64,000 nt of DNA from assembly GCA_021827205.1 (NCBI GenBank), contig JAKAWV010000009.1:1-64000 (forward strand), in the 5' to 3' direction. Both the position numbers and the translations under genes were made by a program. Positions 11,679-16,664 of this stretch are shown one piece after another; positions within the stretch are counted from its first letter, which is position 1; every line of letters starts with the position of its first letter. The DNA is from Pseudomonadota bacterium. Its GTDB lineage: Bacteria > Pseudomonadota > Gammaproteobacteria > Xanthomonadales > Rhodanobacteraceae. The notes beneath the pieces are model-generated. The model made no database searches, was not told the DNA's origin, and saw nothing but the letters and a program-made list of their open reading frames with translations.

Positions 11679-11696
11679 GGCTTGACAAGTCAAGCC
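11679..11696. promoter_or_regulatory. Inverted repeat/operator-like site upstream of the thr leader
   Basis: ggcttgac-aa-gtcaagcc perfect 8-bp arms, includes TTGACA; 20 bp upstream of the leader ATG. Confidence 0.35.
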
Positions 11697-11716
11697 GACA
11701 CCGCTTGACTGCGGCC

Positions 11717-11866
11717 ATGCCCATGCGCACCGCCCCGTCCAAATCCAGCCGAAAAGTTCGTGTCGCGGGCTTGCCGCACAGTGGCGCGGCGACGCTCCAC
11801 AACCGCACCACCACGACCACCACGATGACTACCGTGAACCGCGGCGGTCGCTGGTGCATGCCTTGA
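11717..11866 (+). CDS. thrL: thr operon leader peptide (49 aa, Thr-rich)
   Basis: Translated directly: MPMRTAPSKSSRKVRVAGLPHSGAATLHNRTTTTTTMTTVNRGGRWCMP*. Eight Thr in nine codons (11807-11833), followed by an attenuator-like hairpin and thrA. Below the ORF track length cutoff. Confidence 0.85.
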   Translation: MPMRTAPSKSSRKVRVAGLPHSGAATLHNRTTTTTTMTTVNRGGRWCMP

Positions 11867-11887
11867 GTTGAACTGAACCATGCCCCC

Positions 11888-11940
11888 GACCCCGCCGATC
11901 TGCGCAGCGGGGTTCGGCGCCGCGGCGCAGCGGCGGGGTC
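11888..11940 (+). promoter_or_regulatory. Candidate thr attenuator hairpin
   Basis: GACCCCGCCG (11888-11897) pairs with CGGCGGGGTC (11931-11940), with inner TGCGC/GCGCA; no clear U-tract after it. Confidence 0.65.
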
Positions 11941-11956
11941 TCTGCGGAGATCCATC

Positions 11957-14422
11957 ATGTCCTCGACGTTCCCGGCATCGCTGCCGCAAGGCAGTCCCTG
12001 CGTACACAAATTCGGCGGATCAAGCCTTGCCGATGCCGCCTGCCTGGCGCGCGTCAGCCGCATCCTGGGCGAGGCGGCCGAGCCGGCGCAGCTCATCGTG
12101 GTGTCCGCGCTGCAGGGCGTGACCAACGCGCTGGTGGCACTGACGGATAGCATCGACGACCCCAGCCCAGCGCTCGCGGCCTTGCTCCAGCGCCATCTCG
12201 CGCTGGCTGCAGCGATCGGCGACGCCGAGTTGCACGCCTGGCTGGAACTGGACTTCGGCGCCTGCGCGACGCAATTGGCGCTGGCGCGTGCCGCGGGCTG
12301 GAGCGCGGCGACGCGTGCGCAGATCCATGGCCGCGGCGAGCTGTGGAGCGCGCGCTGTCTGCACTCGCGCCTGCGCCATGATGGCCGCGATTGCGCCCTG
12401 CTCGATGCGCGCGCGGTGCTTACGGTGCGTCAGCACGACCTTGGCGCGCAGGTCGACTGGCCGCGCAGCCAGGCGGCGTGGGCGGCATGGCGCGGGCAAC
12501 ACGCACAGGTGCATGTCGTGGTCACCGGCTTCATCGCTCGCGATGCAAGTGGCGCCGACACCACGCTCGGCCGCAACGGCAGCGATTACTCCGCGGCGAT
12601 CTTCGCCGCACTGTCCGGCGCGCGCGAACTCACCCTGTGGGGCGACACCGATGGCGTGCTCAGCGCCGATCCGCGCCTGGTGGACGAAGCCGTGTCGTTG
12701 CCGCGACTCAGCTACGCCGAAGCCTGCGAGCTGGCCTATTTCGGCGCCCAGGTCATTCACCCGCAAACCATGATCCCGGCGATGCAGCGCGCGCTGCCGA
12801 TCCGCATCCGCAACAGCTTCAAGCCCGCGCATCCGGGCACACGCATCGACCAGAGCAGCCAGCGCGAGGTCGCGGTCAAGGGCTTGAGCGCGATGCTCGG
12901 CATGGCGCTTGTCAATCTCGAGGGCGCCGGCATGCTCGGCGTGCCCGGCACCGCCGAGCGCGTGTTCGGCGCGCTGCGCGCAGCGGGTGTTTCAGTAAGC
13001 ATGATCTCGCAAGGCTCGTCCGAGCATTCGATCTGCTGCGTGATCCGCGACGCCGACGCCGCGCGCGCGCAGCATGCCCTGACCCAGGCCTTCGCCACCG
13101 AAATCGCCGCTGGCAGCATCCAGGGCGTGGCGCTGACCCGCGACATCGGCGTGCTCGCCGCGGTCGGCGACGGCATGATCGGCCGGCCCGGCGTGGCCGC
13201 GCGCCTGCTGTCCGGCATCGCGCGCGCGCAGGTCAGCGTGCGCGCCATCGCGCAGGGCGCCAGCGAACGCAGCATCTCGGTCGCGATCGGCGCCGACGAA
13301 ACCACGCGCGCGTTGCGCGCCGCGCACGCGGCGTTTCTGCTCTCCGAGCAAACCCTCAGCATCGGCATCATCGGCCCCGGACAGATCGGCGCCGCGTTGC
13401 TGGAGCAACTGCGCGCAGCGCAGCCGCGCCTGCGCTGCGCGCACCGCATCGACCTGCGCGTGCGCGCCATCGCCGACAGTCGCCGGCAGTGGCTGGACGC
13501 GGGCACGGAACTGCCCGCCGACTGGCGCCTGCGCGTGCATGAAGGCGCGGCCACGGACCTTGCCGCCTTCGCCGCGCACGTGCATCCCGGCCACCTGCCG
13601 CATGCCGTGATCATCGACTGCAGCGCCAGCGATGCGCTGGCCGATGCTTACCCCGGTTGGCTGCGCGCCGGCATCCACGTGATCACCCCGAGCAAGCGCG
13701 CCGCCTCAGGACCAGTCGCGCGCTGGCTGAACATTCGCGCCGCGGCGGCGGCCAGCGGCGCGCAACTGCGCTACGAAGCCAGCGTCGGCGCCGGTCTGCC
13801 GGTGGTGCAGACCCTGCGCGATCTGATCGACACCGGCGATGCGTTGCTCGCCATCGAAGGCATTCTCTCCGGCACGCTGTCGTGGCTGTTCAACCACTAT
13901 GACGGCAGCCGACCGTTTTCCGCGCTGCTGCGCGAGGCGCACGCGCTGGGCTATACCGAGCCCGATCCGCGCGACGACCTTGCCGGCATGGATGTGGCGC
14001 GCAAACTGGTGATCCTCGCGCGCGAGGCCGGACTGACACTGGAAGTCGAGCAGGTCGCGGTCGAAAGTCTGGTGCCCGCGGCACTGATGGACCTTGAGCG
14101 CGCGCAGTTCATGGCGCGACTCGATGAGCTCGACGCGGCCATGGCCGCGCGCCATGCGCAGGCGCGGCGCAACGCCTGCCGGCTGCGCTATCTGGCGCGC
14201 CTCGACGCGCACGGCGCGGCGACGGTGAGCTTGCTGGAGGTCGCGGAAACGCACGCCGCGGCGCACCTGCGCGCCACCGACAATCTCGTGCAGTTCAGCA
14301 CGCGCCGCTACTGCGACAATCCGCTGATCGTGCAAGGCCCCGGCGCCGGACCTGAAGTGACCGCAGCCGGGGTCTTCGCCGATTTGCTGCGCGTGGCGGG
14401 CAATCTGCGGAGCAGCCCATGA
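11957..14422 (+). CDS. thrA: Bifunctional aspartate kinase / homoserine dehydrogenase I
   Basis: KFGGSSLADA kinase motif, two ACT regions, GPGQIGAALLEQL and HSDH domain (GTLSWLFNHYDG, EPDPRDDLAGMDVARKLVILAREAG). Confidence 0.97.
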   Translation: MSSTFPASLPQGSPCVHKFGGSSLADAACLARVSRILGEAAEPAQLIVVSALQGVTNALVALTDSIDDPSPALAALLQRHLALAAAIGDAELHAWLELDFGACATQLALARAAGWSAATRAQIHGRGELWSARCLHSRLRHDGRDCALLDARAVLTVRQHDLGAQVDWPRSQAAWAAWRGQHAQVHVVVTGFIARDASGADTTLGRNGSDYSAAIFAALSGARELTLWGDTDGVLSADPRLVDEAVSLPRLSYAEACELAYFGAQVIHPQTMIPAMQRALPIRIRNSFKPAHPGTRIDQSSQREVAVKGLSAMLGMALVNLEGAGMLGVPGTAERVFGALRAAGVSVSMISQGSSEHSICCVIRDADAARAQHALTQAFATEIAAGSIQGVALTRDIGVLAAVGDGMIGRPGVAARLLSGIARAQVSVRAIAQGASERSISVAIGADETTRALRAAHAAFLLSEQTLSIGIIGPGQIGAALLEQLRAAQPRLRCAHRIDLRVRAIADSRRQWLDAGTELPADWRLRVHEGAATDLAAFAAHVHPGHLPHAVIIDCSASDALADAYPGWLRAGIHVITPSKRAASGPVARWLNIRAAAAASGAQLRYEASVGAGLPVVQTLRDLIDTGDALLAIEGILSGTLSWLFNHYDGSRPFSALLREAHALGYTEPDPRDDLAGMDVARKLVILAREAGLTLEVEQVAVESLVPAALMDLERAQFMARLDELDAAMAARHAQARRNACRLRYLARLDAHGAATVSLLEVAETHAAAHLRATDNLVQFSTRRYCDNPLIVQGPGAGPEVTAAGVFADLLRVAGNLRSSP

Positions 14423-15369
14423 ACGGAGCGGCCTCGATGAATACCTGGGCGCGCGCGCGCGCGCCGGCCAGCGTCGGCAACGTCGCCGCAGGCTTCGACC
14501 TGCTCGGCCACACTTTCGCCGGACCCGCCGACGAAGTTCTGGTGCGGCGCGTGCCGACGCCGGGCGTGCGCATCCACGCGATCCACGGCAGCGCGGCGCC
14601 GCTGCCGCGCGACGCCGCGCGCAATACCGCGGGCGCCGCGCTGCTGGCGTTGGGCACGGCCTTGCACCTGGATTTCGGTTTCGAGATCGAGATCCACAAG
14701 GGCATCGCCTACGCCGCGGGTCTGGGCGGCTCGGCGGCATCGAGCGTGGCCGCCGTGGTCGCCGCCAATGCGCTGCTGCCCGCGCCACTGACGCCGCAGC
14801 GGTTGTATCCGCACGCGGTTAGCGGCGAGGCGGTCGCCAGCGGCGCGCGCCACGGTGACAACGTCGGTCCGATGCTGCTGGGCGGACTGGTGCTGGCCAG
14901 CGCCGAGCGCTTGCTGCGCGTGCCGGTGCCCACTGGCCTGCACTGCGCGGTGGTGCATCCGCGGTGCGTGCTGGAAACGCGCGCCGCGCGCGCGGTGCTG
15001 GCCGCGCCATATGCGCTGCATGACTTCGTCGCGCAAAGCACTTATCTGGCGCTGCTGCTGGCGGCTTGTTATCGCGGCGAGATCGAGCTGCTGCGCGAGG
15101 GCCTGCACGATGTGCTGGTCGAGCCGCGCCGCGCCGCGCTGATCCCGGGCTTTGCCAGCGTGCGCGCGGCGCTGCTCGATGCCGGCGCGCTCGGCGGCAG
15201 TCTGTCCGGCGCCGGCCCCAGCGTGTTCGCCTGGTGCCGCGATACCGCCTCGGCGCACACGGTGCTGGCGGCCATGCGCGCCGCCTTCGCCGGCCACGGC
15301 ATCGACAGCGAGGGCTGGGTGGCACCGGTCGACGGCCCCTGCGCGGAGGTTGTCGAATGCGGTTCCTGA
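14419..15369 (+). CDS. thrB: Homoserine kinase
   Basis: GHMP kinase: ASVGNVAAGFDLLGH, GLGGSAASSVAAVVAAN. Confidence 0.96.
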   Translation: MNGAASMNTWARARAPASVGNVAAGFDLLGHTFAGPADEVLVRRVPTPGVRIHAIHGSAAPLPRDAARNTAGAALLALGTALHLDFGFEIEIHKGIAYAAGLGGSAASSVAAVVAANALLPAPLTPQRLYPHAVSGEAVASGARHGDNVGPMLLGGLVLASAERLLRVPVPTGLHCAVVHPRCVLETRAARAVLAAPYALHDFVAQSTYLALLLAACYRGEIELLREGLHDVLVEPRRAALIPGFASVRAALLDAGALGGSLSGAGPSVFAWCRDTASAHTVLAAMRAAFAGHGIDSEGWVAPVDGPCAEVVECGS

Positions 15370-16664
15370 GCACGCGCGGCGCGGCGCCGGCAGCCGATCT
15401 CGTGCACGCGCTGGCGGTCGGGCTGGCGCCCGATGGCGGTCTGTATCTGCCCGCAACGCTGCCGCGCATCGACCTCGCGACGCTGGCCGCCGCGCCCACG
15501 CCGGCCGCGGTCTGCGCCGAATTGCTGCGACCCTTTTTCGCCGACAGCCCTCTCGCAACTGATCTGCCCGCGCTGTGTGGCGAAGCCTATGCACAGGTGC
15601 TGCCGCTACGCGCGCTGGCCGCTGCGGATGACTACGTGCTGGAGTTGTTTCACGGACCGACCGCAGCGTTCAAGGACATCGGCGCGCGCTTTCTGGCCGC
15701 CGCCCTGCAGCGCTTGCGCGCACCCGGCACGCCGCCGCTGACCATTCTCGTGGCCACCTCGGGCGACACCGGCGCCGCCGTGGCCGCGGCCTTCCATCAC
15801 CGCAGCGGCTTTCGCGTGGTGATCCTGTATCCGCGGGACGGCGTGTCCGCGCGCCAGGCGCACCAGCTCGGCGCCTTCGGCGACAACGTGCTCACGCTGC
15901 GCGTCGCCGGCAGCTTCGACGACTGCCAGCGCATGGCCAAGCGCGCGCTGGGCGATGCGGCGCTGCGCGCGGCGCTACCGCTGGCTTCGGCCAACAGCAT
16001 CAGCCTTGGCCGGCTGCTGCCGCAGGCCGGCTATTACGCCTGGGCCGCGCTGCAATACTGGCGCCAGCACGCGCGCGCGCTGTCCTTCATCGTGCCCACC
16101 GGCAATCTCGGCAACGCGTTGGCCTGCGTCATCGCGCGGCGCATGGGCCTGCCCATCGGCCGCATCGTGCTGGCCTGCAACGCCAACGACACCTTGCCGC
16201 GCTATTTCGCCGGCGAACCCTATGCCGCGCAGCCCAGCCGCCGCACCCTGGCCAACGCCATGGACGTGGGCGCGCCGAGCAATTTCGAACGCCTGCGCGC
16301 GTTGTATGCCGACGATGCAGCGCTGCGCGCGGATCTCACCGCGCACGCGGTCAGCGATGCCGACATCCGCGCCACGCTGCGCACCGCGCACGCGCGCCAC
16401 GGCTTGCTGCCTTGTCCGCATACCGCCACCGCGCTGCACGTGCTGCAACGGCTGCGCGCCGCCGGCGACACGCAGCCGTTCGCGATCGTCGCCACCGCGC
16501 ATGCGGCCAAGTTTGCCGAGGTCGTCGAGCCCGAATTCGGACACGCCGCCGCCATACCCAAGCCGCTGGCCGCGCTGCTCGCGCGCCCCAGCCACAGCGA
16601 AACGCTCACCGCCGGCGACGACGCGCTGCTCGCGCGCCTGCGGCAGTTGCATCACATCGGCTGA
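15357..16664 (+). CDS. thrC: Threonine synthase
   Basis: MRFLSTRGAAPAADLVHALAVGLAPDGGLYLP, FHGPTAAFKDIGARFLAA (PLP lysine), ATSGDTGAAVAAAF. Confidence 0.96.
   Translation: MRFLSTRGAAPAADLVHALAVGLAPDGGLYLPATLPRIDLATLAAAPTPAAVCAELLRPFFADSPLATDLPALCGEAYAQVLPLRALAAADDYVLELFHGPTAAFKDIGARFLAAALQRLRAPGTPPLTILVATSGDTGAAVAAAFHHRSGFRVVILYPRDGVSARQAHQLGAFGDNVLTLRVAGSFDDCQRMAKRALGDAALRAALPLASANSISLGRLLPQAGYYAWAALQYWRQHARALSFIVPTGNLGNALACVIARRMGLPIGRIVLACNANDTLPRYFAGEPYAAQPSRRTLANAMDVGAPSNFERLRALYADDAALRADLTAHAVSDADIRATLRTAHARHGLLPCPHTATALHVLQRLRAAGDTQPFAIVATAHAAKFAEVVEPEFGHAAAIPKPLAALLARPSHSETLTAGDDALLARLRQLHHIG

Follow-up and report, generated by a model that had tools for sequence, protein, structure and literature searches.

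In a genome of the gammaproteobacterial family Rhodanobacteraceae (assembly GCA_021827205.1), a threonine-rich open reading frame and a strong hairpin lie directly upstream of the threonine operon thrABC. The thr operon is a textbook case of transcription attenuation, and the locus raises the question of whether it too is an attenuator, and whether control would act on transcription or on translation. We analyzed a 64,000-nt stretch of contig JAKAWV010000009.1 (hereafter the window), in which the original prediction had placed a threonine leader peptide and an attenuator with the logic of E. coli thrL. Its coordinates for the ORF, the Thr codon run, the 90-nt gap and GACCCCGCCG, CGGCGGGGTC and CGGCGGTCG all proved correct. 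Our analysis points to a threonine attenuator in which the ribosome on the leader controls how thrA translation is initiated, a reading to which we assign a probability of roughly 0.6.

The leader ORF, its promoter and its relatives

The leader ORF had no prior annotation. The operon and the elements upstream of it are as follows:

11682-11687, + strand: -35 element TTGACA, supported by the TTGA[CT] spacing in homologs and a whole-genome pattern match (11682-11719)
11705-11710, + strand: candidate -10 hexamer TTGACT, located 12 to 7 nt before the leader ATG, from position-specific conservation
11717-11866, + strand: leader peptide ORF of 49 aa, putatively leaderless; homologs conserve a Thr-rich leader
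11807-11833, + strand: control codons, eight Thr in nine positions, from codon reading and a shuffle test
11957-14422, + strand: thrA, bifunctional aspartate kinase/homoserine dehydrogenase I (NF006959, 911 bits)
14419-15369, + strand: thrB, homoserine kinase (NF002288, 326 bits)
15363-16664, + strand: thrC, threonine synthase (TIGR00260, 226 bits)

The leader ORF ends at a TGA (11864-11866) located 90 nt before the thrA ATG at 11957, and has an alternative in-frame start at ATG 11723. Its control codons read six Thr, one Met and two Thr. This run exceeds chance expectation: when the upstream region was dinucleotide-shuffled 2000 times, the best nine-codon window contained at most six Thr and never reached eight. 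Runs of six ACN codons occur at just five sites in the 3.04 Mb assembly.

We gathered orthologous thrA upstream regions through genus-, family- and order-level searches and further stretches, selecting homologs with at least six Thr plus Ile in the best 12-codon window. A Thr- or Thr/Ile-rich leader ORF was present in 82 of these regions, bearing out the proposal of a threonine leader peptide before thrABC. The best 12-codon windows contain 6-12 Thr plus Ile in the 82 homologs (selected at the cut-off of 6), versus 3-7 in shuffles. Most carriers belong to the window's family and to the family of Xanthomonas, Stenotrophomonas and Lysobacter, with two from a third family; we inferred these family assignments, the nearest named records being Rhodanobacter sp. 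and Mizugakiibacter sp. MAGs. Most of the order's remaining families showed no such leader, and their upstream regions look unrelated; it is also missing from one sampled genome of the Xanthomonas family (L215). A covariance model built from the relatives (R1) matched 2 of 274 genomes in a class sample, both of them Xanthomonadaceae, and scored just 12.3 bits on the window, a poor score for which we set the model aside as evidence there. As for the operon itself, 148 genomes of the window's family were sampled, and just 43 of them contain this fused thrA at E <= 1e-150. In five Silanimonas and Lysobacteraceae MAGs (L073, L074, L076, L079 and L086), we observed a differently composed Thr-rich frame before thrA (for example, LTLTVTTTALGG...VTTTTG...PGWPN*) with a CCCCGCG/CGCGGGG hairpin past its stop; this frame may be a diverged form of the window's leader.

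Across the homolog leaders, threonine is encoded by ACC (317), ACG (195) and ACT (88), and this synonymous variation indicates that what is conserved is the encoded residue and not the nucleotide sequence. The absence of Ile codons had suggested sensing of threonine only. The window and its closest relatives fit this picture, whereas the leaders of most other relatives have both Thr and Ile; just 10 of the 82 are free of Ile. Judged by its anatomy, the locus is very probably a real threonine-responsive leader.

Of the 82 homologs, 78 have TTGA[CT], nearly always TTGACA, at a distance of 35-38 nt before a leader ATG in frame with the Thr run. A -10-like hexamer at -12 to -7 is also conserved (T at -12 in 52 of 78, T at -7 in 58 of 78), and the window's own -10 element matches TATAAT weakly. 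These distances between promoter elements and ATG are the usual geometry for a promoter with +1 at the A of the ATG. None of the 78 homologs has a Shine-Dalgarno (SD)-like 4-mer before the leader ATG, versus 80 of 82 before the thrA start. E. coli thrL likewise has no SD-like 4-mer under the same test, so a missing SD alone is no proof of a leaderless start, and it is the fixed promoter-to-ATG spacing that carries the argument. This spacing suggests that the leader mRNA probably begins at its own ATG (11717). In a search of three genomes for this spacing, no leaderless leader with an amino-acid run was found besides thr. The same spacing precedes a 129-aa GntR-type-looking regulator, both in the window's own genome (L248, C17:91532) and in a second one (L270, G001 C2:627480), and the start of this protein may also be leaderless.

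Competing helices between the leader and thrA

The region from the Thr codons to the thrA start contains five segments in a fixed order, with segment 1 after the Thr codons, segments 2 and 3 past the leader stop, segment 4 before the SD and segment 5 containing it:

11842-11850, + strand: segment 1 (CGGCGGTCG); 11842-11847 pairs with 11892-11897 of segment 2, all six pairs standard
11888-11905, + strand: segment 2, comprising GACCCCGCCG (11888-11897) and the extension CTGCGC; partners are segment 1, 3 or 4
11907-11914, + strand: segment 3 (GCGGGGTT); local pairing with segment 2 (11888-11895/11907-11914)
11925-11942, + strand: segment 4, including CGGCGGGGTC (11931-11940); 11925-11940 pairs with segment 2, 11936-11942 with segment 5
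11946-11953, + strand: segment 5, with the thrA SD GGAG (11946-11949); 11947-11953 pairs with 11936-11942

In the window, all pairs of the 1:2, 2:3, 2:4 and 4:5 helices are standard. The 2:4 helix (11888-11897/11931-11940 plus 11900-11905/11925-11930) reaches 16 bp including the extension, and 4:5 is a 7-bp hairpin (11936-11942/11947-11953) of -8.5 kcal/mol. Both use 11936-11940 and are thus mutually exclusive. The 261-nt leader as a whole has ordinary overall stability (z -1.35), so that stability alone is no evidence and the conserved alternative pairings are what counts.

A tree-aware column-pair test for covariation yielded no significant pair, probably because each segment has two partners and the window's clade aligns poorly. 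We then adopted a swapped-partner test with control combinations, in which the duplex energy of each segment with its species' own partner is compared to that with partners from other species, across 81 sequences. Own partners gave a gain for all four helices (1:2, z -9.7; 2:3, z -12.2; 2:4, z -8.4; 4:5, z -5.6), while six control segment combinations showed no gain (z -1.4 to +1.8); these z-scores treat related species as independent, making the control combinations the fair yardstick. The gain drops among closer relatives, as expected, and that of 4:5, the weakest of the four, vanishes there. Column counts agree, with 84-90% of cells paired in the stated alignment of the segments versus 32-57% when the register is slid. 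By the swapped-partner test, then, four mutually competing helices co-vary, including the predicted competition of segment 1 for segment 2; given the negative tree-aware test, we do not call this strong covariation.

Folding did not show a clean switch at equilibrium. In the window, 2:4 is favored with or without segment 1 masked, at -78.2 kcal/mol versus -74.1 to -68.2 kcal/mol for folds with 4:5, so that kinetic trapping would be required for an OFF state at this locus. In the 81 homologs, masking segment 1 had a modest effect, lowering 4:5 in 25 and raising it in 9, and mean SD opening in the homologs shifted by about 0.5 kcal/mol. A ribosome stalled at the first Thr codons would fall short of segment 1. 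The direction of switching that we propose below would follow from the logic of the control codons and the occlusion of the SD, with equilibrium folding adding weak support.

Terminator or Shine-Dalgarno sequestration

The original prediction read the strong 11888/11931 hairpin as a terminator and segment 1 as an antiterminator, while remarking that without a clear U-tract the mechanism may differ. That remark was apt. No hairpin in the leader region of the window is followed by the U-tract of an intrinsic terminator, and in 75 of 82 homologs no 8-nt stretch from the leader stop to the thrA start contains more than 4 T, whereas in E. coli all 8 positions of such a stretch are T. Elsewhere in the window, stem-loops with T-rich tails are present in about the number expected from shuffles; candidate ordinary intrinsic terminators are found at 3748-3722 and 28128-28100, both on the - strand. 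The 11888-11940 hairpin reaches to within 6 nt of the thrA SD and shares 11936-11940 with the 4:5 hairpin, which covers the SD GGAG in the window. The missing U-tract and this overlap led us to reject the 11888/11931 hairpin as an intrinsic terminator. Its competition with the SD hairpin makes 2:4 most plausibly the ON (anti-sequestor) fold, which would keep the SD open. Segment 1 works against 2:4, and hence would be no antiterminator if 2:4 keeps the SD open. Compared with shuffles that leave the SD fixed, the native context closes the SD more tightly in 72 of 79 homologs, opening it costing 6.8 kcal/mol on average versus 4.0 kcal/mol; in the window the values are 5.3 versus 3.5 kcal/mol, and 20% of shuffles are equally closed.

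We propose the following mechanism. Transcription would start at or near the leader ATG (11717), and the peptide would be translated off a leaderless message. With Thr-tRNA plentiful, the ribosome would pass the Thr run and depart, allowing 1:2 (or 2:3) to form; with segment 2 occupied by 1 or 3, segment 4 would fold onto 5 and hide the thrA SD, turning the operon OFF. When Thr-tRNA is scarce, the ribosome would stall within the Thr codons and cover segment 1 or its vicinity, so that 2:4 could form and block the 4:5 hairpin, and thrA, along with thrBC, would be translated (ON).

Three other explanations have to be weighed against this one. Classical transcription attenuation, with 11888-11940 as intrinsic terminator and segment 1 aiding an antiterminator, has in its favor the Thr-codon leader with a strong G+C-rich hairpin past its stop, and is the mechanism of the homologous E. 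coli operon, where Thr_leader matches. The scarcity of T after the hairpins, the nearness of the SD and the conserved SD hairpin that competes with 11888-11940 all speak against it, and we consider it unlikely here. We view with equal reserve a mixed control, in which hiding of the SD halts thrA translation and Rho then ends the untranslated message inside thrA, so that excess threonine would lower both translation and transcription. Such a scheme fits every structural result and makes a U-tract unnecessary, and in E. coli poorly translated messages are known to be subject to Rho termination.

Less probable still is an action of the leader peptide mainly through translation coupling or re-initiation, with the downstream hairpins as incidental structure. 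The G+C-rich region does fold easily to an ordinary total stability, and equilibrium switching is weak. However, the co-variation is confined to four specific segment pairs and missing from six others, and the leader stop lies far from thrA for re-initiation. We favor an attenuator governed by the ribosome on the leader, and we infer that control is translational rather than transcriptional.

Relation to known attenuators

The Rfam family Thr_leader (RF00506) had been suggested as a check on the locus. Its covariance model matched neither the window nor any of 20 relatives, whereas an E. coli positive control scored 122 bits. With no match and no U-tract terminator, we rejected membership in this family. 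The locus resembles E. coli thrL and Thr_leader in its Thr-codon-rich leader, its alternative hairpins and its position directly before thrABC with a fused thrA. It differs in the missing U-tract, the SD-covering hairpin, the putatively leaderless start, the longer peptide and, in the window's clade, the lack of Ile.

Single elements of the arrangement have counterparts in other systems. TrpL of Sinorhizobium meliloti (peTrpL) is a leaderless attenuator ORF with control codons (PMC7298713); there the transcript begins at the ORF's own ATG, as it probably does here, and the ORF holds the control codons, but this alphaproteobacterial system responds to tryptophan and uses a transcription terminator. 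In actinobacterial ileS T-boxes, a hairpin over the SD regulates in place of a terminator (PMC1262725), giving an SD-hiding leader of an amino-acid gene like the one proposed here; T-boxes read the tRNA directly without a leader peptide, whereas the proposed sensor here is ribosome stalling. In the open literature, we found no description of a leaderless peptide combined with SD hiding in a threonine operon. An earlier notice for Xanthomonas is possible in the comparative genomics of proteobacterial amino-acid attenuators by Vitreschak et al (2004; FEMS Microbiol Lett 234:357; cited in PMC1262725), which includes threonine.

Taken together, the locus most likely works like a ribosome-mediated attenuator that is translational and leaderless, and by the tests made it falls outside Thr_leader. 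We give even odds to the broader proposal that thrABC of the Xanthomonadaceae and Rhodanobacteraceae is under a distinct, uncatalogued attenuator class, defined by a leaderless Thr/Ile-rich peptide and ribosome-governed SD hiding and free of a terminator. These results annotate a previously unrecorded regulator before the threonine operon in two families. They also bear on how attenuators evolve, with a relative of the thr system that keeps the attenuator logic but apparently uses a leaderless sensor ORF and has shifted control to the start of translation.
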